From Thuidium tamariscinum (Eukaryota; Streptophyta; Bryopsida; Hypnales; Thuidiaceae), in the NCBI GenBank assembly GCA_947034885.2, contig OX344754.2, positions 6,951,001 through 7,015,000 of the forward strand: 64,000 nucleotides of DNA, written 5' to 3'. The notes beneath the pieces were generated by a model that searched no databases, had not been told where the DNA came from, and was given only the letters and a program-made list of their open reading frames with translations. Below are positions 30,794 to 63,819 of the stretch, piece by piece (position 1 is the first letter of the stretch; each line of letters begins with the position of its first letter). A program made the position numbers and the translations under genes.

Positions 30794-30799
30794 CGATCA

Positions 30800-34770: not shown

Positions 34771-34889
34771 GCTAGTAACAAAAGATATGACTGAAAGAGT
34801 TTCATCTGGTGTGGGCGCTTCATTCCCACCTTTGGAATTAAGCGATCACAACCAGGCTCTGGTCCTAACAATTCTACTACCTACGGGTG

Positions 34890-36000: not shown

Positions 36001-38320
36001 CGGCCCTCCCCTCCCGATACCCGGCCCCCCCGATACCCACGCGGGGCGGCTCTGGGGGGCTTTGCTTTGCGGGGCTATTCCGATGGGGCTGGCTCTCGGG
36101 GCTAGCTCCGGTGGGTTGGCCTGAACTGGGGCTGGCTCTGGTCTGGGGCTGGCTCCAAATGGGGCTGGCTTTGGACTGGGCTGGACCCTGGTTTTTGACT
36201 CCTAATGCAATGCTAAGATGTATGCTAAGTGTTTGGGTGGGCACTAGTTGCTCCTAATCTAGGTGAGGACTTGCTTACTAAGTTGTTGGAAGCTAAACGT
36301 TGGGTTAATTTCCAAGGTGTTGGAAACTAAACGTTGTTGCTATTGTAAAAGGACTTGCATTTGACACCCCGCTAAGACTTAGGGGGTTCAAAGCTTCGCC
36401 GTGAGGATGTATTTTTGACACTTGACTAAGACTTCTAATTGCCTAGAGACTTGGGGGGGCCATAGCTCCGCCGTCCCTCATGGGACTAATCTATTCTCGT
36501 GGACAAGAGAAGGGGGAGAAGAGAGGGACTTCCTATGCACCAAGGCTAAGTATTTAGAGGAAGGTCAAGGCTCCGCCGTCCCTCATGGGACTAGCCTAGC
36601 CTTATGCACAAGAAGAAGGGGGGAGGAGGTAGGTACAAATTGCAAGCATACTCTCTAAGTCACCTCCCAAGTCACCCCTCAGTTCCTCACTAGTCTCTCC
36701 CACAACAACTTTCACTTGTTTCACAATACAAAAGGTGGACCACCATCAATTAACAAAAGTTCCAACAAGACTTGGGGGGGTCTCAAGTCCCCAAGTAAAA
36801 ACCACAAGAGCCAAGGGTGCAACAACCCCAAAACTATCAAAGGCTCCTTTGGCATCAAAAGCCAAAGGAAATCCGGCATAACCCGGGCCCAATAGTGCTC
36901 CTCCCTTAAATGGGTAGGAGTGAGAGAGAGAGAGAATGAGAAGAGAATGCCACCCCTTTTATACTCAAAAGGGAGCAACCCCCCCCCCTTAATCTACTAA
37001 GAATAACTAGATGAGGGAATTTAGGAGGTCCGTACATGTTTACCCATCCCAAATCTAATTATCCACCTAAAATCTACACAATTTGAATTGAGAAATTCAA
37101 ATCTTACCTAACCTTACAAGAACTTGCAAAACCGTCTAATTTACCTTCCCCAAAATCTACAAGTTCTCACATGGGAAAAGTTCCCATGTGTTCCCACCTA
37201 CTTAATTTGAAATTACTTACACCAAAGCACATGAGCCACCTCCACTAAATTTTTGAGGTGGTACTTGCTCTCACATGTGCCCGGAGTTCCCCACACGTTC
37301 CCTACGCGTTCCCCACGGCCATTGGGGCCAAAACTCCCCAAAAAAGCATTGGGGGGCCTTAAACCCCCATTTCTTCTCCATGTGCTGTTCCCAAAAGACT
37401 AACTTTTGGAGTTTAGCTTCAAATGGCAAACGGATTGCGCCATTGGCTCCGGAAGGCCATAATTAGCCTGAAAAGAATCCCTTACCCCTTAAACTATGTC
37501 CAAATTCTCGAGGAATCTTAGCGTAAGCTAGGGTCAAAGTTGGGATAAATTCCCAACTTTTGGAGTTTAGCAATTTTGGACCCCAAACCTTCACCAATAT
37601 TCCAAGTAGATGGAAGGGGGTAGGAATAGACCCAAGATAGGCTCCGTTCCGATGTCGTATGGCCCCGGTACGCCGGTCAACTGCAACTTCCGCCATTTAA
37701 TTTGTCAGTTGGGGAGGAATGTCGCCGATTCGGGATGTTCCAACTATCGATTCGTCTTGAAACTTGGGGAAGCGCTCCGTTGGTGTGAGACCGCCTTGCC
37801 GGATTTTTAGTGGGATTTTACCGCATTTTGGGATATTCTTTCGAATTCCCACCCAAAGTCCACCGCGGTTGACCGTCTGGGAAAATATCCAAACAATGTC
37901 GGAAAATTCCCAAACTTTAGAGGGGACCACCCATGGGATCCCCCCACTTGGATGCAAATCTGCATCTCCACTGCATGCTCCAAGAATTAGGCAATCGCCC
38001 GGTACCTGCATTTCATGGTTAGTATTTTGTCCGTCTTCTCTTTGATGCTATGGGGAGTGGGGGATTCCTCCTAGTTCCCCCTATGAGGACTTCCTAGCCT
38101 AGACAGGGCCTTTTTAGGCTTCTTACCCTAATCCTGCACATCTCTATCAGTTTGGCGTCTATTTAGCTAAGACAAGGCCCGTTTTGGATGTAAACTATCC
38201 TAAATCCCACCTAATGACCAAATGGCACATTAGTATGTGTAATGCCAATACCGGTTTAATGCCCTTTTGTGGGTGTTATAAGCCTAATTACGCCTTAATT
38301 TATGTACAAATTCGAAAAAA
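36000..38320. other. Helitron interior without a recognised gene
   Basis: The left part (36000-36180) is G-rich on one strand with repeated GGGGCTGGCT. A duplicated block, CTCCGCCGTCCCTCATGGGA, occurs at 36465 and 36571. The rest shows no recognisable host-gene fragment by eye. Confidence 0.45.
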
Positions 38321-38438
38321 GAACCCGTGAGTCTCCGGTGACGAATCGGGGACTCACATCTAGTGAGCAAGGTAAAGGATCAGATTGGTCAAGGAAAGTA
38401 AAAATTTCCCCATGGTGGTTGGACCTAGGCTTCTTAGC

Positions 38439-39641
38439 TTAGGGAAGTAAAGAGGAGATGGTATGTCTATGAGGTAATATGCTAAGGGAGGGCTGACCTA
38501 CCCCAGGAAGGGGATTCCTTGTAATGCGTTCAGAGTCATTGAATCCATCAGGGAGCTTGTCAGCTAAAGCCTTGAGCTCAAGCAATCGTTGGACCTTGGA
38601 ATCCGCAAGGCCATTACGTGGATCAAGATGCAGTGTGAATGTTTTTGGAGCAGAAAATATAAGGGATGAGGTAGGTCCAATTAAGGTGAGAGAAGAAAAG
38701 ACACGCTCATCAAATTGACAATTCTGGAACTGAGCCTTATGCAAAGTTCCGGTTTTGGGAGAGACATATCTAATGATACTTAGAGAGTCAAAACCAATAT
38801 AAATACCTTCATGGTGATGTGACCCTATTGTTTTACGTTCAGGCTCAAGGATAGGCATCCAAACTCGGCAACCAAAAACTTTGAAATGAGAGACATCTGG
38901 AGGGCGTCCGGTCAGAATCTCTAAAGGTGAATGCTCATTAAGCAAGGTAGGGTGGTACCTTAGCAGGGTTGCTGCATGGAGTACTGCGTGTGACCAGAAA
39001 AAGGAAGGGAGTTTAGCATGGAGTAACAAGGGGCGGCTGATAAGTTGGATCCTCTTGATGAAGGCCTCAGCTAGCCCGTTTTAGGCATGCTCATACGGGA
39101 CAGCGTATGTGAGTGAGATGCCTGTTGCTACACAATAGTCCTCAAACTTTTGTGACCTAAATTCCTTAGCATTGTCCATACGAAGAGTTTTGACTGGGTA
39201 GTCTGGGAAATGGGTTCTGAATTTCAACAGGGATGCTAGGACTTTAGCAAAAGCTATGTTTCGAGTACTTAGCAAAGAAACTTCAAAGTGAACCCCAGCA
39301 GCATCAACTAGAACTAAGTAATACCTGAAGGGTCTTGATGCGGGAGTGATGGGGCCACAAATGTCACCTTGAAGTCGTTGGAGCGGAGGTGGAAGCTCGC
39401 TTGGCAGCTTCCAACGTGAAGGCTTCAAAATCAGCTTTCCTTGGGCACATGCATCACACGCTCCAACCTTATTTGCATCACTGGTACAAACCTCATGTCC
39501 CACAAGCAGGGGCAACATCCTCCTGAACATCGTAGCTCCTGGGTGACCCATGCGTCCATGCCATAAGTTGGTCTTATTTGAAGCGATCACTGAGTATGAA
39601 GAGCCTCCACTAGGTGGAACAGTTTTACGTCCGCTAGGCAA
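38439..39641 (-). pseudogene. Copia integrase, interrupted by a stop
   Basis: The first part (39641-39081) has the pre-integrase zinc motif (LWHGRMGHPG ... CDAC) and the catalytic GDICGP and RMDNAKEF aspartates. A TAA near 39078-39080 replaces the glutamine of the usual EHAQNGLAE block, so the catalytic glutamate lies after the stop. The second part (39029-38439) continues with FFWSHAVLHAATLL and FKVFGC. The frame ends at the right border region of the nested Helitron. Confidence 0.88.
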
Positions 39642-39869
39642 ACGGGAGATTACACACTCATACAGGCCACTTGCTCCGCATTGTGCGGTGGCAAGGCAAA
39701 TTTGTTCTTGCCAAAGGTCAAGTGTCTCCTTACCGTCCTTAATCGAGGTTAGGACGTGAATACCATTTGCTCGGAGGTCTCAAAAGTTGATCAGGCTTCG
39801 GTTAGCCTCCGGCGCGTACATGGCATAGTTACAAATGAGGGTGGCATCTCCAGGCAGTGTGACACATGT

Positions 39870-40076
39870 CTAGCCCTCACGGAACTTGAATGTCCGTCTT
39901 CCAACTACTGTGCTTAGTTCACAAGTCTGCCAGGTACCAATTTCAGAACCATGTCTCGAAAATTCAAAGTACTTTGGATCCCTAAGGATCGTGTGAGTGG
40001 ATCCACTATCAATCAGGATTATGTCCTCATCTGCCTCTAACTTGCTAGATGTGTGATAAACTGACGTGATTGTCAT
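39870..40076 (-). pseudogene. Copia aspartic protease fragment
   Basis: The frame contains the active-site signature LIDSGSTHTILRD and ends in a TAG at 39870-39872, after which the same frame continues with Copia-like sequence. It should be one polyprotein with gag and integrase, so this is a broken part of it. Confidence 0.8.
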
Positions 40077-40169
40077 GTAGTTTTGGGGGTCAGTTCCATC
40101 TAGGGATGGAGCATCTAGGAAGTGAGACTCTCTCGGATCCTTCCTAAATTGTTGTACGTAGCTCCTTGT

Positions 40170-41123
40170 ATATCTTAACTAGATACTCACCGGCCCGACA
40201 ATTTTGTGCTACATGGCCTGGTCGGCCACACTTTTGACATTGACCAGTTCTACAATCCTTAGATGGATGACCGAAACGACCACACTTGCTACATTCGGTG
40301 GACCGACAATTTCGTTGCAAGTGACCAGGGCATCCACACTTGTGGCAATTGCGAGTTTCTGATCTAGACTAAAAGCTAGAAGAATTGTAATCAGATAACT
40401 TATCATTTGATTTTGGAGGGTATGGTCGGTTGGGCTATTATCGCCTCCACTTCTGGTTGCCCCGTGTTCTCCTAGTCGGTAGCTCCGTGGTGTTGACCTC
40501 CCTGGCTGGTTTGCGTTCCTCATTCTTCAAGAGCAATTGTTGTTCCTTTTCGGCTAGTAGCAAGTAGGACATTAGTTCCAAGTGTGTTGTAAACCTCATG
40601 TTGCGATATTGCTGAGCTAACAAAGTAGAAGCAGAGGGAAAAGTTTGGAAAGTCTTATTAAATAGCTCCCGTTCGGTGACAGTCTCCCCGCATAGGCGCA
40701 GTTGAGCAACTATTCGGTGCAACTCGGCATTGAAGGAAACCAAGTTGGTGAAATCCAAGACTCGAAGCGCCACCCAATCGTTGCGTGCTTGCGGGAGAAA
40801 AATAGTTCTCTCATGTTGGAACCTAGCTGTGAGCTGCCTCCATAGTTCTGCCGGATCATCAATCTGGATATATTGCTCCTGGAGTGCAATGTCCAAGTGT
40901 CTTCGGAGAAGAACCAGCACCCAACTTTTTGTTGCAGTTGATATGCCCCCGGTATTGGAGAAATCAGGGCGCCTTCCCACCCCTCCGCAGTCATATGTGT
41001 CCTAGCATCGATGCTCTACCTCATATAGTTGTTGCTGTCAGCCTCCAATGGTCCAAATAACAACGGTTGCAAGCATGGAGCCTTTTTCTTCTCTGGCAAA
41101 TTCTTTGAGGTTGATGCAGCCAT
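40170..41123 (-). pseudogene. Copia gag with three zinc knuckles, broken
   Basis: The gag start codon is at 41121-41123. The first frame reads into a TAG at 41016-41018, within the conserved NNY-x-x-W-SIDAR region, where tryptophan is expected. A frameshift near 40980 then leads into the frame 40980-40438, which contains a typical capsid-like UBN2 domain. A further shift leads to three CCHC knuckles between about 40345 and 40200: CHKCGCPGHLQRNC, CSKCGRFGHPSKDC and CQKCGRPGHVAQNC. The order is normal, but three knuckles are more than the usual one in Copia. Confidence 0.85.
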
Positions 41124-45981: not shown

Positions 45982-45992
45982 GAATGTTTGTA
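45982..45992. repeat. Left target-site duplication
   Basis: GAATGTTTGTA, identical to 63809-63819, directly precedes the left inverted terminus. Confidence 0.75.
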
Positions 45993-46481
45993 CAACGATG
46001 CTAGAGTGTGAGCGGGGAGCGATGAGCGTTGAGCAGGGAGCGTTGAGCAACTATATTTGAGCATTCACTGCAAGGATTAATACTAAAAATAAATATGTCA
46101 GAGTAATAAATATTGATGTCAAACCCTCATATTAGCAATTTAAAATCTCTAATATAAAAATTATTAAAAACTAAATTATTTAAAATATTATTTAAAATGT
46201 TTCATTTAGTTAATACTCAGAGTATAAATGAGAGAAATGAAGGATAATTGCTTCTTTCAGGAAGAATGTTACTACCATAGACTTGATGGATGAATGCACT
46301 TCATCTATGTCATCCATTCAACATTCATCCAAAGAAGTTCTTTTTTTACCATTACAATGTACATGCCCCCAAAATGGAATGACATATAGATATTTTGTAG
46401 AAGAAAAAAATAATTTTCAAAAAACTATAGAAATATTTGTTATTAAAATAAAGCATTGTCAATTATTTTGAAGATGCTTTC

Positions 46482-46766
46482 ATGCTCCTCGAAATCGAGG
46501 AGCACCTTCAAGCTTCATTTATACAATTGAAGCAATTAATCATATACTATTCTCTGGTTGTGTTTTGTTGTTCTTTAAAACCAAGAAGCACATTTGAAGG
46601 TCACCAAGACACATATAATAATGAATTGTATAATATTAAATGGCCATGTTTTAGTCCTCCTCGAAACCGAGGAGCACAATTCAGGTTCATTTAGAAAACT
46701 ATAATATATAATCAAACACTATTAATTGGCTCTTGTTTAGTGCTCCGAGGTTGGAATCGAGGAACA
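46482..46766. repeat. Left subterminal palindromic repeats
   Basis: Four copies of a palindrome of the type CTCCTCGAAATCGAGGAGCAC lie near 46484, 46570, 46655 and 46741, with a period of about 86 bp. The spacers (ATTCAAGGTTCATTT..., CTATAATTATATA...) are also related. The second and fourth copies are more diverged. Confidence 0.8.
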
Positions 46767-46948
46767 AATTCAAGGTTAATTTGTATAGTTGTAAAATTCA
46801 TCACACAATAGTTTTGGCTAAATTTAGCCTTTTTAAATATATATTTTTTTTATGTTTAGGATTTTACAAATGATTTGAATGGTCCTTGGAGTGCCAAGAA
46901 CTATTTCTACTTTGAACTGAATAGCCTACGAGATACATAACTACTACT

Positions 46949-49900
46949 CTATAGGTTGCTACTTGCTAGTAGTAGCTTCACTTCATCAAAACTGAAACTT
47001 GGAGCATGTATATATTTGTCATCCTCTAAGTTAGCTTTGCAAAGAAACCTAAAAACATAATACAAATGCTTGCAGTTCACCCATGATTTCCTACTACCAA
47101 GTGCAGCCGTACTCATTGTTATAAAGTCTTCACAGGTACAAGCAGGAAAGTCCGAAATAGTGATTCGATAGACTTTGTAGACTGGAAATATACCAGACTT
47201 CAAAGTTATCACTCTACCATAGCCAGGGTATGGAATAACAATAACGGATTCAACGACAACTTTCAAGTTTCGTGCTGTCTCCCATTTGTTGCGGTGGTCA
47301 ACAGTAGGCACATTAGGGTTACGTCGAACGGTCCTCCCTAGCCGCTTTGTGGGATGCATGTCAGCATTCGATGGCTGCAGATCACTATCATACTGCTTTG
47401 GATGAAGTAAAGGCACACCTTTCAATCTACTTTCTTCGTTGAAGAGGTGGAACACTCTGTCACTACTCTCTTCAGTTTGCAATTGAAACCCTGCTTCTTC
47501 TAAAGAAAGTATCTCTGATTTTGTAAGATGCGTCCCACATGCTACAGGCCAAATATTTGGGAGAGATGGCCAATCGTGAACCCACTTCACTTTAGAGCCT
47601 CCAGCACAACGAAGAAGATCATCTGCACAAAACCAAAAATCAAAATTAATGATGGCCTTCGTTCCATACTCTGTCATGCGACCATTGTAGGTAGGTGCTG
47701 CTGTTCCATTCTTCTTCAACTTGTTTATCTTAGCTCCACATTTCTTCTTCATTCCGACTTGAACTCCATAACAAGTCTTCCCTTCCTTCTTACACCTAGC
47801 AATGTGCCATAAAGAAGGGTTGCAGTCAGTTTCAACTATTTGGATAGCATGAGGACATAGTGTACTTGGTCCTCCTTCTATTGGCGTTGGTGTTGATGCG
47901 CCTCCTTCAGTGCGTGCTCTAGTTGAGCGAGTCTCAACTCTAGGTGCTGAGAAATTCACAGTATCATGGTGGTGAGAGTCACCATCTGATCCAGGTGGTA
48001 GATCCAATTTGCGCTTTGTGGAGCCAAATACTTCTTCACCTTCCAAGTGGGGGACCCTTGTTGTCAATAGGTCAGCTCCTGGTAGTTTTGCAATGGCCTC
48101 TGCAAATTTTGTTGGATCTTTTAAATGTTTGGCAACTCGAAGGCGAAGTTCATCCAAATGGGGACCAGTGCCAGATGCATACCCCTGGAGGTATGCCCAA
48201 TAATTAGTCGATTGTTGAAATGCCCGCATCATGTCATCTATAGTGGCAACATACAAACAAGTTCCTCTCTTTCCAGACATTTGTAGCCACTTGTTGTGAA
48301 CTGTCTCTGCTAAGTTGCATGATGGCATTTCAGTTAGTTCTTCTAAGTTGAGTTTCTGCACAAACAACAACAATTTCAATTGCTAAGGTAAGGGTTCTTT
48401 GGTCCCGAAATGCCTCTTTCAAAAAATAAAAATAGGATATCAATTATTGATATAAGAGCAAATTCTATAAATGAAAATTTAAAGAAACTAAATGAATGAA
48501 AACTTCATACCCATAATACTTGTCTATAAACAGAGAAGTTAAGCATTCATATATAGAAAATCAAAATGAAAGTGAAAAATCACTTACTAACTGCAAAAAG
48601 CCACCCCATTGCCGATAACGGAAGTACCAGAAACCAAGCCAATCGTCTAGTTGCCGAATGGAGTCCTCTGATGCAGCCCTTGAAGATAGCCACCAACCCT
48701 TGATTCCTAGGTATCTCTCTTCTGCTTCTGCCATTGAGTTTGCATCCTTGTATTGTTTACAAAGCTTCTTGTGAGTTTCTTGGAGCTCTAGTCGAATGTG
48801 CTTCTCTGTATGTCTGTTCAATGATGTCGTCCAATGAAGTAGACAAGAGCGCTCTCGATCTTGCATTGGCTCATGTTTGTTGCCACTTCCATATACCACA
48901 CGAACAGCATGCCAGTTGGCCATTGCATTGTCAGCCATGAAACCTTTGAAATTTGGTGATGAAATTCCATGGCGCGCCATTACAGAGTTAAGGGATCGCC
49001 ACATTTGCTCTTGTGATTGAGCGTCCTCACTCATCATGTCACAAACACATATAGTTTGGACTCGACAAAACTCAGAGTCACAGACATGGGCAGCCATAGA
49101 CGTCCATCCTTTTACCCTTTTCACATGATCAAACATGCACCAAGAATTCTGTAAGTCTCCACCAAGTTGCATACGCCTAACCAAATCCACCCCGCTTCTT
49201 GGACCTTCCTCAGACATTTTGAAAAGGTAAACCTTATCCTTCCCTTGGCCTGGGAATACACTATCTTGAATAAAAGAATATGTGCTTCTCATTTTTAATG
49301 ACATAATGTTGTCAATGGGTCCCCCACTTGTATTGTGACGAAAAGTAGAAATGGTATTTCTAATACTTGGTGAGCTGAATATCCGAAACTTCTCCATGAC
49401 TGCTTCTAAAGCCTCTCCGCGAAGGGGCTTCAAATCTCTTTGCAACCCATCTTCACAAAATAACTCAGATGCTAGAAACTCTTTACCAACAGCAAGACTA
49501 ATGGCCGAATTGGTTGCAGATGGTGTTTTAGAAACCTGCTGACCAATCAGAGATGTTGTTCGCTCAACAGAATCATGACAAATGCCCCTACCTACAGGAT
49601 GGTTGTGATGGCCAACATGGATACAAGCTCTCGGAAAACCATTAGAGTTCAAGACTCTATACATGCGACAAGGACATATAGACTTGCAAGAAGGAGAAAC
49701 CTTACAAATCCGACATACAAGATTAGACTTCGCTGGAGATTGGTTCCCCACAACAAAGATAGTAGGTGACGATCCCTCCCACTCAGTCTCGTTTTGACTT
49801 CCGCCTCTCCGAACTCTAGGGCAATCTGGATTCTCACAAACTAAATGGCCAACACACAAAGAGTAGCGGAACTTAAGTCCAAAGTCATTAGCAATGTTTG

Positions 49901-50717
49901 TAGTGTGTGTATGGGTCCAATTATGGCCATCAAACTTTCGGTCCATGCCCTCTAGTTGTCGACCTACAGACAAAGAAGATGTTGATCTTGTCAGACCAAC
50001 AGAAGAAGATGCTGGAGAAGAAATAGGAGGCAACTCAAAAAGAACATCTCCATTAAATGACTGAGGAAGATGAGATACACATTCACATCGAAGTGTATTC
50101 AAGTCTAAGAACTTCAACTCATTTCGTGCGCGTGGTCGATTCTGTAAACTTTTAAGGCACTCAAAAACACTTTGAAACTTGGATGCATTCTTGGGACTTA
50201 TAAGAGGTACTTTGCTACCATGAGCGCTCTCGTTCAATACCAAATAAGTGTCATCATCCATCTCAAGTATAGGAGACAACCGAGGAGCCAACTCTCTAAT
50301 CGCTTCACTAACAAGAATAGTATCATCATCTGAAGACTCAGTAAGAGTAACGTGACTATGATCTTGGGGCTCTACTTTAATACGAGTTTCCCACGGAATT
50401 TGTATAGAAGAGGTTGCAAACCCAAGTGTGAGAACATCTGTTGACACCAATCTAATGACATTTGGAGTACCAAATACATGGTATTTTCCTGGGGCAAGTC
50501 TCCAAACATCTCCTTCCTCATTCTTGAACTTTAGTTGCATGATAGTTGATACAATTTCTACTCCCTCGGAATCGAATAGCTCCTCCTCTACACACATAGA
50601 TGTCAACTTTAGATTGAATCTCACACTAAGAATTATAGAAGATACCCATGCCACACCATCATCTCCGCAAGGAAATGAAATAGGAACACTCAAACCATCA
50701 CCACGCACCACAGCCAT
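46949..50717 (-). CDS. MULE-like transposase with SWIM zinc finger
   Basis: Two exons, 48588-50717 and 46949-48355, join in phase 0 over a 232-bp GT-AG intron to give about 1,178 residues. Residues 290-375 form a cysteine/histidine-rich DNA-binding region (CENPDC, CRIC, CPCRMY, ACIHVGHHNHP) like the WRKY-GCM/FLYWCH zinc fingers of MULE proteins. Residues about 530-640 look like the MULE DDE core, with a likely second aspartate in FMADNAMANWHAV (about residue 596) and RSCLLHW after it. Residues 1116-1141 are a SWIM finger (CTC ... CKH). An IKVEPQD motif near residue 113 is a possible SUMO site. The frame is intact. It should act in the nucleus on the element's own ends. A domesticated protein is the alternative, but the surrounding termini favour a transposase. 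Confidence 0.82.
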
Positions 50718-51969
50718 GTCTATTCTTGGATTACCATACAAACTATAGACTTGTACTCAAACAATTGCGCATTGGTGCTAGTGCTAATTCTAAAATTCTA
50801 AGATGTTGAGGTTTATGATATGAATACAAGCTAAATTCCATACTAGTATTCTTGTCGTTTAAACTTGATATTCAATGGCTTAGGCGCCATAGTTCTGAGC
50901 ACCGCCAAGAATTGCGTAATTATATATTGCAGCCGTTGGCATTCATATGACAATATAGTGCCACATTTAGAGATTATGGCGTGTCAGAAGCCACCCAAAT
51001 TAATTATTTTGGGTGATTGTAAGAAACACTTGTATTATTTGTTGTATTTTTAACAATACTCATGATTTTTTTGAGGAGTACTTTGAAATTAAAACACTAT
51101 TAAAAAAATTTTAAATGATTAATGTATACACCTCTAAGACAAAGGTTTTCACCAAAAAAGATGGATAGAAAATTTTTCAAAGTAGGAGAACTTGGAGAGT
51201 GCCAAATCTGAAGTAAATAGGTACTTTGATTCAAAAATTAATTTAAATAGTATAAATAAGTTACACAAGAAATAAAAACCGGCTATTTGTAACAACTTTA
51301 TGGAAATGGTAAATCATCAAAAAACCCATGAAAAGAACATTTTATATATTCAAAATGCAAGTAGAAAGAAGCTCACTTTGTAGACTTCTACACCACATAG
51401 AATTAACTATTTTTGAAATTCCTTGGTGAAAATTTGAATTTCTATAGTAGAAAGCACTCTACAAAATTTCACAATATAACTTGTCAAAAAAGGTTTTCAA
51501 TAGTACTAAAAACCTCCAAATTATCAAGTGTGACATACATTCTGGGCTTATTTTTGGATTGTAAATTATTTTTGAAAATTATCAAAAAATTACGGAAGTT
51601 GCATGATAGTCATCAGTACCTTCACAATAAATCTTAAGTCATTCGGAGTTAAAACTCAAAAGTTATGGCCAAAAAATTGATCAGGATGCAACATGTGACA
51701 CAAAATAGTACAAGTGTTTTTTGCAATCACCCTTCTATAATATAGATTTGATAATTTGAAATCCAAGAATTTATGAGAGGTGGTTCAACAAAAAAAATTA
51801 GATTTTGAATGACCGTTTCAATGTTATTGATTTGAATTTTATTTTGCCTTCATCTTACTTCATTGCGTGGATGAAAATACATTCATTATTTTTGAGTGAT
51901 GGTATGTAATGGAGAGTTTCTAGAGGAAGAAGTTCATTTACTGTTCTCATAGTGAGTTTGTCTGTGAGG
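50718..51969. promoter_or_regulatory. Divergent intergenic region between the two element genes
   Basis: About 1.25 kb separates the two divergent start codons and should hold both promoters. The sequence is AT-rich without obvious repeats; no specific promoter element was identified. Confidence 0.4.
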
Positions 51970-54900
51970 ATGCCAGAGGGTTCTTGTAGAAAGAGACGCA
52001 AGCGTGGTTTGCTTTTTTCTAGCAAAAAACAATTAGAGAAATCAAAGATGGTAAGACACTTATGTAGGATTAGTGGAGCTGAGATAAGTAGCACTGTTCG
52101 AACCTTGTCCTATGGAGATCATAGAGTTGAATTTGGAGATTTAGGATCTAGAGTGAGTTCAATAGAGAATAGTGATGGAATGAACACCACCAAGCTTGAT
52201 AGTGTGGACGAGAATGAAGAGAACTTACGCCAGTCAAATGCAAGAAAGAATGCCATCTTGCTAACAAGTGTAAATTCTGTAAGTTGATTCATTTGTTGCT
52301 TTAGCTAGAGTCCAAGTCAAGTAGCTTGTACAAAAGCAGTTGCCTGTCTATTTGTGTAACATCTATTTGCATTCTAATGATTACACCAAATGTTATTATT
52401 GTGTAGAATGATGTAATTGTGCCTATTTGTTCTAGATAGTACATGTAGGATTAAATGCTTTGAAAGATTTGAAGACCTGTAAAAAAAATGGATTATCTCA
52501 ATAACTTACAAAAAATACGATAGTTATTATGATAATGTGATTGATACTGATTAGGATATGAAATAATAGACATGTACTAATTTATGTTTGAAATAATACA
52601 TAATATGACATACTCCGTTGGCATGATTTTGAATACATATTCTAAAGTAGGCTACATTGGATAGGATAGAGTTGATTTTAGAAGTAGTAACTCAAAGCCT
52701 CCAAAACAACTATATCAATGGATTTCTTATAAAATAGTATAGCTCCAGCAATATAGCAAGTAAACTAAATCTAAATTTATTACTATCACCTCCATCTTTT
52801 AGACAAATTTTTAGATTGATCTCAAAAATATCTTCAATTATTGAGACCTTTAGATAAGGAATAGATTCAAAAACAAATTAATCCTTTAAAAAACGAACTA
52901 AAGTTCAATTGTTCCTTCGATTTTTGACATTTGTCTTTCTGTGGAGGACACTTTTTTTATTTGAACACAATGTCAACACGGTGAATTAGTAATTGTGCTT
53001 GCTATAATAGATTGATTGTACAGGGTAAATTGCCTTCAAACCCTAGTAAAAGATTTCCTCCAATCCCTAATCAGGGATTACCTCCAAGCCCTAATCAGGG
53101 ATTACCTCCAAACCCTAGTGGAGGCTCACTGGCGCTTGTTTCTTAAACGTTTACTCCTTCCTGGAGTCGTCCTACTTATGCGGATCTGAAGCTTTTGTTT
53201 ATTCTTGATTTCAGAATATGGATGATTGTGTTCGTGCGGCCCCACAAGAGCTGGAGCATGAGGACGGTACAGCAACTGCGCCACTTGACAAGCCAACTGC
53301 GCTACTTGACGAGCAAACTGCTTGTACAATTTTGGTACGCTTTCAAATTGCTTCCTTGTTTTTTTGGAGGTCTTATTGTATGATTATAAGGATTGAGTAC
53401 AAGGTTTAGGTTCAAATTTTTGAAGCGCTGATTGACCAATTTCTACTTTAGGATTGTAGATCGTAAATCAATCCTACTGCAAAGTTAATCATTGGGAAAA
53501 CTTTCTTTTTGTTCAAAAATCTGCTAGTACTGTACTGAGCTAGGTTAACCCCATTTCCATCTGTGCCCCCAGCAACCTAGGTTTAGCAGTCTGTAGAGGA
53601 TAGGCCAGCCCCCCAACAACCTGCCGTAGATGTGTTCAGCGAGTTTGCTTACGGTCCCAACGATTAGTGATAATTAGGGGAGCCAGCTCGATTTAGAGAG
53701 AAATAAATTCCTATGTTTAGAAAAACATTATTGGTGTTTAGATTCTTTGTCTAGCTTGAGTACTATTCTTCTGTCTTGCATATCCAGGGTTGGGTTGCTT
53801 GTAACTTAGATCTCGTGGTCTATTATAAAACTACAAAGAAGGAAATATGAACTGGAAACCTTGAGGAGCCAACGGAATCAGAATTGCATCTCGAGGTTGC
53901 TCCATTTCGAAATTGTTGTCGCATGCAGTGCATTTACAACTTAGGGTGTCAGTTCTTTTGCACCTCCTCGGAACCCGAGTAGCCTGAGGTCTGTTCCGAA
54001 GAGCTAATGGAACCTCCCTGAGCTTCGGCATCCTGCAGCGGCCCTGCTTTCTGGGTGCCTGAGCTTTTGGCCAGCAAAGCCTTGCTTTGTCCTGTGCCGT
54101 GTCTTGGTGTCCTTTGCTTGTGTTGTCGATCTGTTTTGTAGCTAACTTAGCTTTGTTTGCTTCCTTTGATTGGTTCTCCAAGCCACCTGTGGCTGGGGTT
54201 TCTTATTTTACTTCTGCAATGAAATTCTGTTTCATTTGTGCAGAAAATTTATAAAATAGCTAATGGTCTGTCCCAAAGAGCCCCATGATTGTCCTAGAAC
54301 TTTTGGGAAGTGAACATGTTAGCTCTGACCTATTGAGATTAAGGATAAGAATGAGATTCCCAAAGCTAGCTATAAGCTTAAAATGCTTTTTAATTTGTTT
54401 AACTCAAAAAAATTTGGGGCCTGATGAACCTCACTTGGGTTTGGAGGAGTGTTCTGAGGTGAGTTAGGTCCTCGTAGTTTTCTTAATTATTATCTTGTCT
54501 TTCTCATCCTTTCTCAAGCCATCAGTAGTTTAGCACATGTTGAACCTTCACCAACCAAAAGATGAATTCAAGCATGAATTCCTATTTGTTAATTCTCAAG
54601 CATACATGTTGACCTTGCAACCATTACAAGAAACACATCTGATTCTATATTCATGAAGATGTGCATGAATACCAAGAGTCTCAAAACTAGAGTGCTGGAT
54701 TGTTAAGGCTTGCAATTTCAATTCAAGCTTTGAACTTTTTGTTTTCTAATTGTTCTTTATTGTGGCTTGTCTTTATTTATCCCTCATATGCTGGTAAATT
54801 AAACATCTCAAGTAGGGTACCTAATAGATTTTTTGATTTGAAATTCAGATCCCTGCTTTATGTGGAAAAGCAAAGGAGATTTCGATGGAGGATAACAGTC

Positions 54901-57900
54901 TTCAGGTTTGAAGCTCATCAAATGGTTTGAATTAGATATGGATTGTTTTGTTTTGGTTAGGAAACATATATGGTACTCCCTTTGTCCCACTAAAAGCTTC
55001 CCAAATTCTTCTTGCAAAGCCTGTAAATCAACCTAATTAGTAAGCTTTTAGTGGGACACAGGGAATTCTAATCATTTTAGAATCATTAATAACTTGTGGT
55101 ATTTCGCTTGTAACTTTGGCAATTTATTAATGGGAGCATCATTGCTAAGCATTGGTCTTCCTCATATCTTATAGAAGAATATTTTGGCTTCATTATGTTT
55201 TTTTTTAATTGCATCACAAGGTTTAGTGGAGAACTGTAATATGCTCCTCGAAACCCAATGAGGGATTTGGGGTGCAAAGAAAGGTTCATAGGGTTTTGAA
55301 GTATTGACCAAATAGAGTCAAATTTTTTATTACAATATAATTGGAATGTTTTGGTAGGATTACTTTGACAGTTTTGATAATGTGAGAGTTTTGGTGAGAT
55401 TACTACACACCCAAACTCCATCTTCCACTTAAATATGTTCACTTCTAATTCTACAAGAAGACAACAATGACTGTTGTGAATATAGGTTTCTTATATGAAA
55501 TTCAATAGGGTTTGAAATTATGAACTATGCTAGTCCTAGTCTCGGATCCGAAGAGCATTTATTTGCTTTCAAACCATAGTGTTCGCATCTTCATTTGTAC
55601 TCTAATGTATTCTCCTTGGATGAAGATTGGTCATAATCAAAGTGCTTGATTCTCCTTTTCGATTCCGAGCCACTTGTTTTGAATCCACAAAATGCAATCA
55701 TTGAAGATCTTAGATATTCTCATTATGTTTTGAAGAGTACTTTGTAATCAATAATTAGATCTAATATATCCATTTTTTTGTCTTTTAGGATTCTCTTTTT
55801 AAAAATTGGGTGATTTTTTGATTGAAAGCATGAAACTTCTCAAATCCATGTCCAATATGGAACTGATTTGAGCCTCTTTGGTTCCGAGGAGGCTTTTACA
55901 AGAAGGATGTGTTGTTGAGGTTTAGCTATTTTAGATGTATGACATTTATTGTATTGATGTAATGTGAAATGTTAGATTTTGAATTATGAAATTGGGGTCA
56001 TTTGCTGAGATGTCAATTTCATTGCAATGAAGTCATGTGGCTATGTTTGATGTTCTAAATTTGATTTGGTATTCTTGTTAGCCACATGATGGTGCTGGGT
56101 CACAGACTATAGAAGATGTTGCAACTACAGTTGCAGAATTGCTAGAAACAACAGAAGGCAATCTTCATCAAACCTTTATAGAGGATCCATCATCCCATGG
56201 TGGCCAAATTCAACAGGTAATCCGAAAGCCTTGGTTAAAAGCTTTCAATACATTCTATTCATTAGTACTTTCATGGTAGTTGTTTGAATTTAATATTGTC
56301 ATAAGCAACTTGATTAATTTTTATATTGGATCTTGAATTTGAATTAGACAAGCCTCTTAAGATGCTAAATACCCTTGTTGGTATTCCGAAGAGGCAGCCT
56401 TGGGTTTTGGAAGGGATGTGTTGATTTCTTATATCTTTGCTCTTCGGAATCCGAAGACCCCAACTAGGATTCCAAATAGGCCTTCTTCGGTTCCGAGAAG
56501 GGTGTGATTGCCTTACTATACCAAATTGCTTTAAATCTAAACATCTTTTCTTGGGCTCAAAAGAGGCCACCTAGGGTTTCGAGGAGACTCCTTGAGTTGT
56601 TTGAATATGCAAGTTTATGAGGTTTTTAAGTTACAGTTAGTGTAGTATGGGTGATATTTTTAGTTGGACTTTTCCAAGCTACTTTGTATCAATGAAGGCC
56701 TAGTTTATTTAATGCCTAGTTGTAGTAAATGGTTATGACTTTAAATCTCATTCGATATCAAATAATATAGGATCTATAAAATTAGGAATGAAATTGAAAT
56801 GCTATGTGATTTGCATTTGTAGAATTTGACATTTAATTTTGAGGAATAATTGAATGAGGTAGTGTCCAAGAATAGGGGATCACAAATCTTGGGAATGTGC
56901 CCTAATAGAATAATAGTTTTCAATAGGATGTTTAAATATGTAATTTAAATTGTCTAAGATGTCTATTGTATGTGCTTAGACTTTATCAGAATTTAGTCTC
57001 AAAGTATTTGTATTGTTATATATTATAACAAATTTGAAATTGAAATTTTTGTGATATATCAGGAACCTCTTGTAACCGATGCCCCTATTGAACTAGAGTT
57101 GACACATGACGAGACTGTGAATGCATTTCGAACAAAAGAAAAACTTGATTTCAACACCATCATCCGCAAGTATCGATTCCAACCAGCAAGGTCTTCTCGC
57201 TTCAAAATCCCACTCTGTCGATTGATATCATTGCCACTTATAAGGCCAATTCTACAGACTGATGTAGTTCGCCTTGAATCTGACTTTGTTCACAGGTATA
57301 TAGAGGGTGATCGAGTTTTTTATGTTTCACTTCACAATGACAAAGGTATGAGCCAAAAGGTGACGGATGAGATTTCTTCTTCTTGGGATGCTATTTGGTT
57401 GGCCAAGAATGCAAAATTTGAGAATGAACTACAAGGCCATGAGGATCGTTCTAGACTATCAGGCTTCATGTTTTTTGTGTGGGATGGAAACCACCGCTTC
57501 AAGGCTTGGACAAATTACATCAACAGAATGAAAGTCGAAGATGAAGACATGCATTGCAAAGTGGATTCTATTCTATTGGAGACTAAGGGATCCACGGGTC
57601 TCTTGATGCATGCAATGAATGACGTCAACAGGTAATAGTTTTTCATTTGTAAATTTGTGATGGTACAATTGATCTAGTGATTATTGGGCTCATGGTTTTT
57701 TTCAAATGAAAGATATATATTGTGCAATTTGAGTGAAATGAGGGACCATTTGTATTCCTAATTTTGATTTTTGAACTTCTTAGGTCTACAGAAAATGCAC
57801 ATGTGAAGACAAATGTTGTGCACCGTCTTCATAGAATCAACACATATGGATCCCTCAAACTTCAAGACTTCAAAGAGTTACTTTTAGAAGATGAATACAA

Positions 57901-60900
57901 AGCTTGTGAGACTCGAATAAAACCGTATCCTTGGCACCCTCTAACTTCCGATGTCTTTATACGGTTTCTTCATCGGTTATGAGTCTATCAATTTATCTTG
58001 TCTTTGAAATTGTAAGCTATTAGCTAAGGTTGAGTTCTCTAACTATATTTTTCTATTGCTTTTGTGATTGTACAATTTGTTTGTAGGGAGATTCTTCCCC
58101 AATGATTTGTGCTTATTAATTAAGGATTACATATGTTCTTTATTTGCTAGCTTTGTAGTATACATACTTTCATTTTTATAAAATCATGTAGTATTCTATT
58201 ACTTTCATGGTGCAACTTGTTTAGTTGCCATATAATTTTTGGATAACTTGCTGAAAATGGACAATGTCATTCATCATGTAAATAAATTTAACTTTGTGTA
58301 TTATTGTATTGTAGCAAGAAGTGTCTGCGGCTGCTGAAGAGGCAGCTAGACTATACGAAGAGCGAACACTACCAATTGATAGGACATCGAGGGCACTAGA
58401 AGAAGCAATGACAGATGCTACTAATGGGAAGGTGAAATCCCTACGGACCGAGTTCGATAAATTGAGTGCAGTTGGCAACCCCAAGCACGGTCCTCGTTGG
58501 CTTGAAGAGGTTTGTTTTCTACTTCCTTGTTAATTAGGATTTCAAGTGCTTATTTTATTTAGTTTTATTATTTTGATTTCTTCTTTTTCATTTTTCATTA
58601 TCTTTTTCATTTTTCTCTTATGCATAATTTGTCCATGAACTATCAGATTGTGATTCATTGGAGCAAGCATGAAAGGCCAGATATGACATTGGATAAGCTA
58701 CAAAGTATAGCTGCAAGCATTGTTCAACCAGTTTACAAGAGTCGTTGGTTATCTTGGTGGAACTCTAGTGAAATGAATCGTGGAGCTTTAAGATTTCCTA
58801 TTCCAATTGCAACAGAAGACAAATTGAAGGCATGGCTACCAAAGGCTACGTTTTGGGCTGAGGTAGGACTTCTATCTAGGTCCATTAGTTTCTATGATTA
58901 ATTGAAAACTAATTTTTCAGATGTCCTATTCCTTTTCATTATTTCCTTTTGAGATGTTGTATTCTTTTTTCTTTTTTAGTGCTCTCATGCTATCATTTTA
59001 ACAATTATCATCAATATTTTTTAATTTTATTCTACATTTTTGTCATGCAGCTTGAAGAAGCAGCTTGTACGTGGATTAAAGCAACTCTTGAATCAGAGCG
59101 TATAGTTGTTGATTGGAATGTCGATGAAGGAATGGATAATATTGGTGACTATGTGGAACGCTACAGGATTATACTTTGGGATCATGCTTTCTATTCTTTC
59201 TTTGTGAAGAGTGGAAAGTACTCCCGTCTCTTACCATTCCTTGGCCAAGAGGGATGTGAGCAAGCTATGCAACGTTGTGTCTATAGGTATTTACATTTGT
59301 TAGTTTCTTCAATTAAGTATTCATTTCTGGTATCTAATGGCAATTTTAGTTTTCTTAATTCATTGTACATCTTTCCATTATTATTTTACAATATCTCATT
59401 TATTATACTTTTTTTTGTGTCTAATGAGGTGTTTTTTTTAGGTATTTCTATCGTGAGTTGGCTGCTAAGGGAGGGATTCAAAAGCGTGCTATACCCAAGC
59501 TTCTTGGAGCTTGGACTGATAAGAACCTACCTTCTTGTTTTTTCACAACAACTCAAATTCGTGGTTTTTCTCTACCAGAGCTAGTAGACTGCCCTTGGTA
59601 CATTGAATGTAGGAGGACATATGCACCAGCAGAGGAGCAGAATGCAAAAGAAGAAGCAACAACTAATAAGGCTATAGTAGAGGATTTGTCTTTTGAGGAG
59701 GAAGAAGAAGTTGCCCAACCAATTCCCGACCCAAAGAAGAAAAAGGGAAGAGTTCAAAAGAAGAAGCAACCCGAGAAGAAAGCCCCTGCGAAGGTCACTA
59801 GATCTTCTTCAACACATCAAGGTGCCGCATCTTCGGCTCGTTCTGATGTGCCTGCTTCAGAGTCACATGGTGGTCTTGGCAATTCTAAAGTACCATCGGA
59901 GTTTTTTGTTCCTTCTCAATGGCAGGCAGCTAGTTCCCTTCGCTCGGAGACAATAACTAGCGATGTAAGCCAACTCATTCTTCAGTACTCCATTCGAGAT
60001 GCAATGGACTACATGATGAAAACTCGCACACAATCTCCGCAACAAGTGCAGATTCTAGACTTTGCTAAAAAGGTAAGGATACTTTTGTAATTGGTATTTT
60101 CAATTGTTGGAGTTCTATGCATTATTTTTTTTTGGTTTCTGATATTTTTGTATAAAATGATGTAGGCAGGCAGAGGACGCACTCGTTGCTTTGGTGGTGT
60201 GGCAAAGCGTGAAGCATGCCTTGATTTGATAATTGGAGACATGCCTGACGGTCTACCTATCCCCAACATTTCTCATCCACCTCTAAATGTTCCTTCTTGG
60301 AACATTTATAATGATGAGTTTGCAGAGTGTATCTTTGAGTTTGCAAGTGGTACACTTCAAGATGATGGAGCAATATTGCTTTTTTTGCCCGACAATTCAA
60401 AAATTCGTCATTCAGTTGATAAAGATGCTAAGCTGCATGGGTTCAAAGTGCATACTGATTGGTGGGGCGTAAATGAGTTACGTATGACCTCACACAAGGA
60501 CATCAACTTCACGGTAAAGATTTGTTTTCAATTGATGTATCTATGTTTAAAATTCTTTATGTTTCAATTTTTGAAAACTCAATGTTTATGTACAGACAAA
60601 ACGCTTTTGGATTGTCCTATACATCCGAGTTATGTTTAAAAAGACAACGATTGAGTCAACATTTTCCGTGGAAAAAAATCAAGAGCTTAGTGGACTTGCT
60701 ACGGACATATGTGGTAAGAATTAGGCCACATATAACAACTTTCTTCAATTTAGATGTTTGTTATAAATTTGTCAATTGTGATTTAATCTTGGCTATGTGA
60801 ATTCCATTTTCCTATTGTCATTAAATGTCTACTCCATTATTAGAAATTGATTTTGTAGTGGCCATGTGGAACTCATTTCAATATACCCTCATTTTTGAAA

Positions 60901-61872
60901 CCATTTTGTAATAACTAAAATCTTTTGTTAGTTAAATTGTTCACTCTAAGTTTTCAATGTGAATTTTGTACCATGAATTAAATGTTATGTGTTGATGATT
61001 TGATGGACTAAATATTTGTGAAATTATTTTAGGAGAAGGATTGTTGCATAATTTTACAACTGCCACTAGCCAGCTGATGAAAGATGGCATCCCATGGCAT
61101 GGATCACGTGAAAAGGATCCTCTTTTCTTACAAGTACTAATCGAGAGTTTTTCAAAACCCAATGATGTAGTACTCGATTGCACTGCTTCCACAGGTTGAA
61201 ACTATTAGCCTTCCATTTATAATATATTTGTTTTCATTGTAGGTTTATTACTTTTAATTTAATGTCAATGATTTTGAATGGTTTAAAACTCTATGTATGG
61301 TTTATACCTTACAAAGTATTTTGATTTTCCACAGGGGCTACTATCCATGCTTGTCAAAGGAGTGGCCGACACCTCATTGCATTGGAGTCTGATACGGAGA
61401 TTTTTACACACATTCTCACTCCACTCATTGACTTGCCTGCACCAAATGAATCGGTTCAGAAGAAGCGAAAACGTCAAGTTTCATCAAGTGATGAGGATTC
61501 TGAGAGTCCCGTGAAGAAGGTCGCCCAAAATCGCTTGGGTTCGTAAGTCTAACACTATTACTCTATGCTATGAATTTTTTCAATTGTCAAAGTTAATCCA
61601 ACTTTTAAACCCTATAAATTTTAATTTTGATGATCATATTTCTATTGTGGTGCAGGTTGGTGAAGTATGTGATTAGCCCTTCAAAGTCTTGGTCATTGCC
61701 TTGCTATGCTGAGGCACTAGCTGCAATTGATATTGAAATGACATCACTTTCTGCCTCAAAAGAAGCTACTTATAACCCTCATGTTATGCAATTTTTAGAC
61801 GTTGAGGCTATAGAGGATAGTATAGATAGTGACCATAGCCATAGCTCCATAGGCTTGAGCTCTTCAAACTAG
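51970..61872 (+). CDS. ParB-like / N4-N6 methyltransferase-like protein
   Basis: Exons: 51970-52278, 53215-53334, 56082-56216, 57063-57631, 57784-about 57982, 58315-58509, 58647-58862, 59051-59286, 59442-60072, 60166-60513, 60596-60713, 61033-61194, 61335-61542, 61656-61872. All introns are GT-AG with matching phases except after exon 5, where phases do not match. The product is about 1,220 residues. Residues about 236-350 resemble a ParB/sulfiredoxin-like fold (RFKIPLCRLISL ... FFVWDGNHRFKAW). A basic linker (KKKKGRVQKKK, about residue 720) is a likely nuclear signal. Residues about 890-1090 follow the beta-class N4/N6 DNA methyltransferase order: motif IV region DLIIGDMPDG (DMPD instead of DPPY), then IPWHGSREKD, VVLDCTASTG and SGRHLIALESD. 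Altered motifs IV and I suggest lost or changed catalysis. The fusion resembles phage ParB-methyltransferase proteins. Domain calls rest on motifs seen by eye. Confidence 0.68.
53960..56590. repeat. Palindromic repeats within introns
   Basis: Palindromes like TTCGGAATCCGAA or CTCGGATCCGAAGAG occur near 53963, 55246, 55541, 55655, 55872, 56383, 56441, 56482 and 56570. All but the last lie between exons 2 and 3 or in the following intron of the methyltransferase-like gene. They are of the same type as the subterminal arrays at both ends. Confidence 0.65.
54976..55064. mobile_element. Short Stowaway-like MITE in an intron
   Basis: Inverted ends CTCCCTTTGTCCCACTAAAAG and the complement of a closely similar string (CTTTTAGTGGGACACAGGGAA) enclose about 90 bp. 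The ends match those of the MITE at 17353-17939. The left flank is TA; the right is mutated. Confidence 0.75.
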
Positions 61873-62399
61873 GGATCCATATATTTTATTTGACCTTTAG
61901 TTTGTATTTTCATCTATTATTATATGCATACTTTATTGAATGGATTGTCTACTATATCAATATAGAATCATCAATGCATTCAATGGGATTGGTTTTATGT
62001 CTTCATTCACTATTATTTAATTTGTATCTTTGGAATTCTTCATTGAATTTCATTATTTAATTTCAATTCAATTAGTTGAATATTTGTGGACTCTGTATAA
62101 CAATTTGTTTTTTCCATCCCCCCCTTGTTTGCCTCTTAAGTTCAAAAGCGACTTTTTTGTTTATAGGATTGAGTATTTAATTCTACCAATGAAACTATTT
62201 GGAACCTGGTCTTTGTTTTGTAGAACATGTAAGGTTGTGATTATTTTGAGAATATTTGAATTTTTTAAGTCAATGATATAGGTAGTAATTTTTTTTTAAT
62301 TCCCCTCAAACCTTACTTGAATCAAGTACAATTTTTAATCTAAATTGGTATGAATCATTCGGTTTACAAAGAGTTTCTTTTAAATTGAGGAGACTTACT

Positions 62400-63400
62400 A
62401 GTCCATATATACTTATCGATTGCTATTACAAGAGCCTCCTCGAAATCGAAGAGGTGTTTAGATCATCTATGACCAAGCATTTTATCTTCAATAAGCATCC
62501 TCAAAATCTGAAGGGGCATACAGTTTATCATTTCTTTATATCATTGTCTTCTTATCAAGCTACTCAAAATTAAAGAGGCTCATAGGCAACCCTTTTGAAT
62601 GAGGTTGTAAGATGATTTTACTACCTTAAAGGCTTAAATCCTATCCAATCAATTTGTAGGTGTTTCTAAAGACTTTGCTAGCCCAAATAAAAATAAATGT
62701 GAATTCTAGACTTTAACAATTTAATTTAGGCCATACTTTTTCTCTGTAATTGTCTTCATATAAGGCTCTTCAGAACCAAGGAGGCCATTCCAATTCCCTT
62801 GTAAATGTGGTATGTAAATTAATTTTATTGCATTGTATCCTATCCAATCAATTTATAAGAGACCTTAGAAAGGCTTTACTACTAATAAAACAAATGTGTG
62901 ATTTTCAAAATTTAACAATCTAATTTAAGCCATCCATATTTGTGATTATTGTTCTTTAAAGGCCTCCTTAGAATTGAGGAGACTTATAGAAACTCCTTTG
63001 AAATGGAGTTTGTAAGATGGACTTCATTACTTCAAATCTTATCCAATCAATTAGTAGATGTTTTGAATTTAGAAAGCTTTGCTAACCCTCTCAAAGTTTC
63101 ATATAAATTTTGGATTTCATGAATCTATATTACGCTATATTTATTGTTTGTTATTGTCTTTTTATTAGCTTTCTCGGGACCGAGGAGGCCATAAAAGACT
63201 TCTTATAAGTGTGGTATGCCAAATAATTTTACTATCCTAAACACTATCCAATCAATTTGTAGGAGACTTTGAAAGGGCTTTACAACTAAAAAAACAAATG
63301 TGTATTATTTTGAAATTTTATCAATCTAATTTAAGCCATTTATATTTGTGATTCATGTCTATTGAAGGCCTCTTCGAAATCGAAGAGGCTCTTAGGTATA
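62400..63400. repeat. About 200-bp tandem array with one palindrome per unit
   Basis: Palindromes of the type GCCTCTTCGAAATCGAAGAGGC lie near 62430, 62762, 62963, 63170 and 63368, about 200 bp apart in the last four. Other landmarks keep the same period: ATCCAATCAATTTGTAGGAGA at about 62642, 62848, 63028 and 63247; TAATTTAAGCCAT at 62722, 62930 and 63330. About five diverged copies lie 0.4-1.4 kb from the right end of the transposon. Confidence 0.85.
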
Positions 63401-63808
63401 CATTAATGGTTGATATGTGTATACTAATGCAAACAATTTAACTAACATGCATCCACAATTTCACGTGATATGAAATATAAATCCAAACAAAAATTGTCTT
63501 CAAATTAGATGCATTAGAATGCCTCTAATTTATTTTAATAAGAAAAATTAAGGGCTATTTCTTTTCATCCACCAATATTCATCTACATTCATCTATCACT
63601 ATCTTCATCCATCCAAACAATGAATGGAAGTCAGGAAAAAAGTGACCTACATCCAAATTTTTTTGTAGTTTTTGAGTTGCATTTTAAAAGAATAGATTTA
63701 ATAGTAAATACAAAATCTCTAAAATCTAGTAATTAAAAATTTTACCGCTCAAATGGGAATGCTCAATGCTCAACGCTCGTCGCTCGCTGCTCACACTTTA
63801 GCAACCCT

Positions 63809-63819
63809 GAATGTTTGTA
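63809..63819. repeat. Right target-site duplication
   Basis: GAATGTTTGTA directly follows the right inverted terminus and is identical to the copy at 45982-45992. Confidence 0.75.

Follow-up and report, generated by a model that had tools for sequence, protein, structure and literature searches.

A two-gene MULE-type transposon family with a ParB–methyltransferase-like gene and subfamily-specific palindromes in a plant genome

Element A, a complete two-gene DNA transposon of 17,817 bp, was located at positions 45993-63809 of the window, i.e. the whole 64,000-nucleotide stretch of DNA analysed here. With somewhat better than even confidence, it is interpreted as a copy of a large two-gene family of the MULE superfamily, in which the product of the second gene, as we infer for both binding and function, would bind the family's own palindromes and regulate its own family. 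ParB–methyltransferase accessory proteins are known from algal transposons of other superfamilies (PMC12477816). New are the MULE-type carrier in a plant genome, which escapes the Pfam MULE model, the altered catalytic motifs in the copies read, and the subfamily-specific palindromes of ~20 bp upstream of the ParB exon.

Borders, termini and copies

The borders were set by a 97% copy elsewhere in the genome, which aligns with element A exactly, border to border. Of the predicted span 45993-63808, the left border was retained and the right border was moved to 63809, since the 97% copy ends in ...ACCCTG before its own duplication TAGTTGATCC and the G at 63809 is therefore an element base. Likewise, the predicted 11-bp border repeat proved to be a target-site duplication, with a length of 10 bp (AATGTTTGTA at 45983-45992 and 63810-63819). 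The left terminus (45993-46065, plus strand) starts with CAACGATGCTAGAGTGTGAGC and continues into 7-bp GAGCNNN repeats, and the right terminus (63757-63809, minus strand) consists of GAGC repeats and GCTCACACTTTAGCAACCCTG. Inverted termini (46 nt, 85% complementary), GAGC-rich subterminal DNA, read in the sequence as GAGCNNN arrays, and two divergent genes were all found as originally predicted. The right-hand part additionally contains ~200-bp repeats (62435-63388), several of them with a palindrome (62435, 62765, 62963, 63169, 63369). Rfam gave no match anywhere in the window.

Genome-wide, the terminus pattern GCTANNRTGTGAGC occurred 1576 + 1559 times against 16 + 11 for the reversed control, a count beyond chance. 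Element ends read CAACGRTGCTA... and SAGGGTTGCTA..., carry GAGC repeats, and are flanked by duplications of 9-10 bp: 10 bp in the two near-identical copies, and 9-10 bp in a much more diverged 12.8-kb element (C2:794339-807159), where ends of this kind again enclose both genes. Together with the 97% copy, this element supplies the further copies with both genes between such termini that the original prediction called for. Copy B (1-3149 of the window) is partial and diverged, with methyltransferase-like C-terminal exons at ~1137-1400, 1496-1693 and 1790-2036 and a matching terminus. A family MITE of 0.25 kb (30543-30794) has the left end CAACGGTGCTAGTATGTGAGC and, in reverse complement, the right end AGGGTTGCTATTATGTGAGC, with no clear duplication. 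MITEs of the family are short and carry the family ends only; among the 20 fetched, duplications were typically 9-10 bp, as scanned with free offsets and without a shuffle control.

Comparison with empty sites, which had been proposed as a check, was made for the 97% copy only, against repeats within the same genome. All 40 paralogous sites that were scored matched the joined flanks of this copy without interruption at the join, and 32 showed no length change at all, which confirms the borders of this one copy. A 99-aa frame across the joined C4 flanks had no Pfam match. In the 363-Mb genome, at least 63 transposase copies were scored of 991 candidates, 150 ParB exons of 613, and 150 methyltransferase regions of 1188; 34 places, chosen from the top of the methyltransferase candidates, were inspected.

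The ParB–methyltransferase-like gene and the palindromes

Gene 2 lies on the plus strand. Exons 1-4 (51970-52278, 53215-53334, 54849-54905, 56082-56216) are followed by exon 5 (57063-57631), which encodes a domain of the ParB/sulfiredoxin fold with a WDGNHR motif. At the end of exon 6 (57784-57976), a GT donor is present in three relatives and TT in the window copy; judging from these letters, the donor seems to have been lost. Exons 7-10 (58315-58509, 58647-58862, 59051-59286, 59442-60072) encode a linker, exons 11-14 (60166-61542) an N6/N4-methyltransferase-like domain (PF01555), and the last exon with the stop codon is at 61656-61874. PF01555 was the sole Pfam match of gene 2 (35.4 bits, cut-off 26.7), and PHROGs methyltransferase families also matched. 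As a protein query the full-length gene 2 returned no relatives because candidates were limited by length; the single ParB exon returned 33.

Canonical methyltransferases have a motif IV of the form (D/N/S)PP(Y/F/W) and a SAM motif I of the form FxGxG. Neither was present in the copies read: motif IV is DMPDG in the window and DVPEG in the relative L090, versus DPPY (2 of 2 copies), and motif I is LDCTASTG (window), LDCKAATG or MDCTASTG (3 of 3). These alterations suggest that the protein's purpose may lie elsewhere than in modification. It appears rather unlikely that the gene 2 product, with its unusual motif IV, is instead active as an N6-adenine or N4-cytosine methyltransferase and marks the transposon that encodes it, a role proposed for the algal proteins. 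The PF01555 match speaks for activity, as does the conservation, between diverged copies, of a GRHxxALExD stretch and of two motif IV residues (the first D and a P), and the Ectocarpus authors suggest that the protein binds and epigenetically modifies its own transposon (PMC12477816). Against these stand the replaced aromatic residue of DPPY in both copies read (n=2), the lack of FxG in three copies, and the PF01555 score of L090, which at 24.7 bits is below the cut-off that copy B just reaches (26.7). A standard DNA-modifying role retains some plausibility.

The predicted palindromic arrays were present (11 sites at up to 4 mismatches) but not perfect, being imperfect in the window. The 20-bp palindrome GCTCCTCGAAATCGAGGAGC is at 46484-46503, with a second, imperfect one at 46656, and further imperfect ones are in the introns of gene 2 (53963, 55873 and 56482; 53963-56501). 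Only three near-perfect palindromes were found in the window, two of them of this motif; at 5 mismatches its consensus had 28 sites, 18 inside element A and 10 outside. Spacing is roughly 100-250 bp, and part of the palindrome number reflects tandem duplication, since the palindromes sit in repeated units.

Among relatives, the ~20-bp palindromes differ between subfamilies. In the 1.5 kb fetched to the left and right of the ParB exon, they occur upstream of it and not downstream; for most copies, the region seen comprised the two exons and ~1.5 kb to each side of them. The palindromes lie almost only at elements of their own family. The 30 ParB loci surveyed (29 copies, as L046 and L058 are pieces of one) included eight without an upstream core and six more whose only cores were non-palindromic at 2 mismatches, namely five from the window's own group plus L062; the clean arrays therefore belong to subfamilies other than that of the window. 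Nor is the core exclusive to the ParB side: 30 transposase loci contained 47 sites (34 downstream of exon 1 at a few fixed places, 8 inside, 5 upstream), with an arm pairing of 2.00 of 5, against 2.83 upstream of ParB.

Positions of the palindromes also bear on whether gene 2 serves transposition, its ParB domain assembling on the palindromes and bridging the far-apart ends. ParB proteins are known to form bridging clusters, element A has palindromes inside both ends (46484, 62435-63369), and in the C11 copy two strict sites flank the two genes on their outer sides. This role is nonetheless unlikely: in other subfamilies the arrays adjoin the ParB exon, the fetched ends of the C2 element contain no near-perfect palindrome, and end recognition seems not to need palindromes, because the short MITEs, flanked by duplications, carry ends only (20 fetched). 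The clustering of palindromes almost only at the family's own copies suggests rather that gene 2 controls its own family.

The transposase gene and its linkage to gene 2

Gene 1 is on the minus strand. Exon 1 (48588-50717), which has no stop codon, encodes a PB1-like N-terminus, a GCM-like zinc finger and an RNase H core (D530, D596, C625xxH628, W704), and exon 2 (46949-48355) the catalytic E (NLAETVHN), which we place at residue 727 after splicing, together with a SWIM-like CxC...CxH motif. This motif was recognised by eye (CTC...CKH), also in L001 and P0002; the Pfam SWIM model gave no match, and the best hit of this half of the protein against PDB sequences had an E-value of 0.41. A C-terminal SWIM finger is common, not universal, in MULEs, and MULE target-site duplications are of ~8-11 bp, a range that holds the duplications of element A (10 bp) and of the diverged element and MITEs (9-10 bp). 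The "MULE-like" designation was further supported by the predicted IS256/MULE-type fold with an IS256-related DDE domain, by a zinc finger of the WRKY-GCM1 type, and by the D-D-E spacing with a CH motif and W between the second D and E. This spacing was compared with Muta1, for which duplications of 8-9 bp are given (PMC5225508).

The support holds although PF10551 misses gene 1. No Pfam match was obtained for the protein at E-values up to 10, nor for the unspliced exons; PF10551 was listed for none of 53 transposase alignment members, of which two matched Transposase_mut (best E 0.034); and none of 33 PF10551 matches in the genome was within 3 kb of the 63 listed transposase copies. The missing Pfam match and the distance of the PF10551 loci would fit a separate superfamily of RNase H transposases, a reading which we regard as distinctly improbable. 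Viral contigs contained no relatives of either protein.

As predicted, the second gene travels with the element, and both genes recur together in other family copies. The ParB exon was head to head within 40 kb in 35 of 63 transposase copies, versus 0.7 expected by chance (the count used 63 of 70 transposase rows, leaving out seven second pieces, and 149 of 150 ParB rows, the remaining one being an overlooked second piece of a copy that was listed). Although MULEs often capture host genes, it is very improbable that gene 2 belongs to the host or was picked up as a passenger. This reading is disfavoured by the divergent order, by the retention of the first exon next to ten further transposase copies, by two diverged full-length elements whose ends are precise, by the hundreds of candidates for both parts of gene 2 (613 and 1188), by a ParB-exon dN/dS mostly below 1 (above 1 in 3 of 43 pairs, all involving the short interrupted piece L058, and in the closest pairs L010-L011 and L040-L044, excluded as too close), and by the occurrence of this domain pair on other transposons (PMC12477816).

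Proposed role and known systems

In the favoured reading of a self-regulating family, the gene 1 transposase would cut and paste family members and their MITEs, and the gene 2 protein would bind the palindromes of its own subfamily as candidate sites and alter the element's epigenetic or transcriptional state. It would most probably work against silencing or in self-regulation, with no methylation activity of the standard kind, perhaps comparable with VANC of VANDAL elements in role, not in descent. A more specific and tentative version, possible at best, is a ParB/parS-type system, in which the protein would load on palindromic, parS-like arrays that adjoin its gene and are specific to the subfamily, and would spread along the element, a catalytically dead methyltransferase domain serving as DNA or SAM sensor; it would exclude host silencing or control copy number, and arrays and protein would co-evolve into separate specificities.

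The transposase shares its catalytic fold with the IS256 family (ISCth4), which is bacterial, in contrast to this plant element, and to our knowledge has no GCM finger or SWIM. Gene 2 resembles bacterial ParB/Noc with parS in the ParB/sulfiredoxin fold and in palindromic sites near the gene, and phage DNA methyltransferases through the PHROGs families; it differs from both in its eukaryotic transposon and altered catalytic motif, and the ParB likeness is one of fold. MuDR is likewise a two-gene MULE (mudrA/mudrB), with long TIRs instead of the short TIRs with GAGC repeats found here. As far as we know, mudrB is unrelated to gene 2 in domain content, and VANC is not a ParB/methyltransferase-like protein.

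VANDAL/VANC, as described in PMC5735166, shares the MULE-type element, an accessory DNA-binding protein (binding being predicted here) and short repeated non-coding motifs that change between related families; the motifs here are ~20-bp palindromes, and binding and de-silencing are only inferred. DNA transposons with TET/JBP genes (fungi) or SET methyltransferase genes (oomycete Harbinger, MuDR) also bear genes for chromatin- or DNA-modifying enzymes, with other enzymes and in other hosts (PMC12730594). PMC3493329 and PMC3671162 were set aside as ParB literature, "ParB" matching in the text seen only through an abbreviation. A literature search, which was not exhaustive, returned no MULE with a ParB–methyltransferase-like gene.

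The closest parallel is algal. The original prediction listed no methyltransferase-like accessory protein as a known precedent; such proteins have already been published from algae, on transposons of other superfamilies (PMC12477816, here and below). Sola1-1_Ec32 of Ectocarpus, a giant element of 21.5 kb (17.8 kb here), carries ParB-like and N4/N6 methyltransferase domains in one protein of ~1100-1230 aa, like that of gene 2, on the strand opposite the transposase. Red and green algal cases are cited there (Petroll et al. 2025; Iyer et al. 2011), as are red algal EnSpm elements of giant size that carry accessory genes. The likeness is by description, not sequence, and neither palindrome arrays nor loss of DPPY is mentioned in the sections available. 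The cases named there are only algal and on other superfamilies, the carrier being Sola-1, or EnSpm in red algae, as opposed to a MULE-type transposase in a plant genome. The accessory proteins are proposed there to bind and modify their own element, and this proposal becomes directly testable here because the palindromes are candidate binding sites.

Borders and empty sites of the two-gene element

The predicted MULE-type transposon at window positions 45993-63809 (17,817 bp) proved to be a real element, with inverted ends, direct repeats and a matching copy on contig C4 of the same genome. Its inverted ends pair at 85% across 46 nt, the left end being CAACGATGCTAGAGTGTGAGC and the right end (reverse complement) CAGGGTTGCTAAAGTGTGAGC, each followed by GAGCNNN repeats with a period of 7. 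The C4 copy, 97% identical in the transposase exon, has ends (L092, L093) that align to the window exactly from 45993 and exactly up to 63809; outside these limits its sequence is unrelated to the window, and TAGTTGATCC flanks it on both sides. Because the match stops exactly at these two positions, the duplication of the window element is 10 bp long (AATGTTTGTA); the border repeat of the original prediction is thus retained, and its length of 11 bp corrected.

When the flanks of the C4 copy were joined into a 301-base sequence, with the element and one duplication removed, all 40 places scored of 106 candidates in the same genome matched straight across the join at 93-98% identity, with no length change in 32, one base in one and three bases in seven. 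The join is read through by a single open frame of 99 codons, with stops in the other five frames. On the basis of the uninterrupted matches and the open frame over the join, the C4 copy is therefore inserted in a repeat that commonly occurs without the element. This host repeat is abundant (G000, e.g. C6:26607338-26607638), and its open frame had no match in Pfam.

Elsewhere in the window, ORFs resembling a pogo/Tc1-type DDE transposase with HTH (10013-12326), ORFs of Copia-type retrotransposon pieces (33157-41001, minus strand) and an alpha-glucosidase-like gene within GC-rich DNA (18006-21314, minus strand) were recognised by eye.

Other copies and MITEs

A diverged full element of 12,821 bp was identified at C2:794339-807159, with start CAACGACGCTAAATTGTGAGC, end GCTCGCAATATAGCAACCCC and GCTATTGAAG flanking both sides. 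It contains a transposase exon (49% identity), a ParB exon (40% identity) and methyltransferase-like exons, and accordingly both genes do occur together between such termini elsewhere, as had been proposed.

The terminus pattern was found at 3135 genome places, versus 27 for the reversed control. Twenty MITE-like pairs on contig C1, chosen among the first 100 entries in the list of pattern matches, typically had duplications of 9-10 bp: a perfect repeat of at least 9 bp in 12, one mismatch in four, and none in four. At the fixed offset 7/7, their mean identity was 0.71 over 10 bp. The window MITE (30543-30794) had no clear duplication at its ends; a 14-bp tandem repeat in its left end (TGTGAGCATGAAAG, 30557-30594) is a variant of the GAGC array. 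A two-exon relative of the transposase (42-45% identity) is encoded on the 4.1-kb contig CADCWO010000080.1 (L001, 1-4101). This contig is assigned to a cyanobacterial MAG and probably represents eukaryotic DNA binned with bacterial sequences. Together with plant-like genes and a genome of 363 Mb in 19 contigs, the relative would fit a bryophyte source.

Linkage of the two genes and selection

A ParB exon, marking gene 2, was located within 40 kb of 40 of the 63 transposase copies, in divergent order in 35; the corresponding means over 1000 random placements were 2.7 and 0.66 copies (maxima 10 and 5). Since the ParB list comprised the best 150 of 613 candidates, the linked share is a minimum estimate. 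For the methyltransferase part, at least 201 matches were obtained genome-wide (150 scored of 1188 candidates), and 26 of 34 places from the top of the match list were on the same strand as a listed ParB exon, ca. 3-4 kb downstream of it. Among 30 transposase loci examined, exon 1 of gene 2 was located next to the start of the transposase in 11, including that of the window (L010), and was not found in the remaining 19 at E 1e-4. In the partial diverged copy at window 1-3149, a 184-bp tandem repeat (200-1051; 4.6 copies, 94%) lies immediately 5′ of the first methyltransferase-like exon that is visible.

Median pairwise dN/dS was 0.19 for the transposase (<1 in 89/90 pairs) and 0.36 for the ParB exon (<1 in 40/43), calculated for non-independent pairs with dS of 0.03-1.2, interrupted copies included.

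Subfamily palindromes and the gene 2 protein

With up to four mismatches, CCTCNTCGRWWYCGANGAGG was present at 11 sites in the window element, at one site elsewhere in the window, and at 0-2 sites in each of 50 Markov shuffles. Of 30 ParB loci, 22 carried TCGN4CGA cores within the 1.5 kb that precede the ParB exon (119 cores in all), and none was found in the 1.5 kb downstream. Of these cores, 59 were palindromic at no more than two mismatches (16 loci); those of the window's own group were imperfect. In transposase loci, 47 cores were also present, with 34 occupying a small number of fixed positions downstream of exon 1.

Palindrome arms and centre vary between subfamilies, symmetry being largely retained: the window group has CCTCCTCGAAATCGAGGAGG-like forms, the L047 group CCACCTCGTCAACGAGGTGG at ca. 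115 bp spacing, L060 TGCCCTCGGCGCCGAGGGCA and L063 TCCTCTCGGCGCCGAGGGGA. Arm pairing was 2.83 of 5 over 54 distinct unfiltered sites. Genome-wide, and counted without a reversed control, 10 of 11 places with the window-group form and 34 of 38 with the L047-group form had a listed copy no more than 20 kb away.

The core was absent from the 1.5 kb upstream region in L041, L043, L054-L057, L059 and L068 (8/30), although L043 had four looser palindrome sites. L054-L057, L059 and L068 represent one ParB subfamily, ca. 44% identical to the window. A different palindrome, TTCCGTCGGATCCGACGGAA or near it, is situated just 3′ of transposase exon 1 in L024, L025, L029, L030, L032-L034 and L036.

The gene 2 protein is inferred to bind the palindromes of its own subfamily and to control the state of its own transposon family; its altered motifs would likely mean a loss of methylation activity. 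The 21.5-kb Sola-1 element of Ectocarpus is described as encoding, on the strand opposite the transposase, a 1104-aa protein with ParB-like and N4/N6 methyltransferase domains (PMC12477816), and gene 2, as judged by domain content, is therefore of a kind already noticed. Transposons carrying TET/JBP or SET genes are likewise known (PMC12730594). In VANDAL elements, a MULE-carried protein is reported to bind motifs within the tandem repeats of the element itself and to remove methylation, protein and motifs changing together (PMC5735166).
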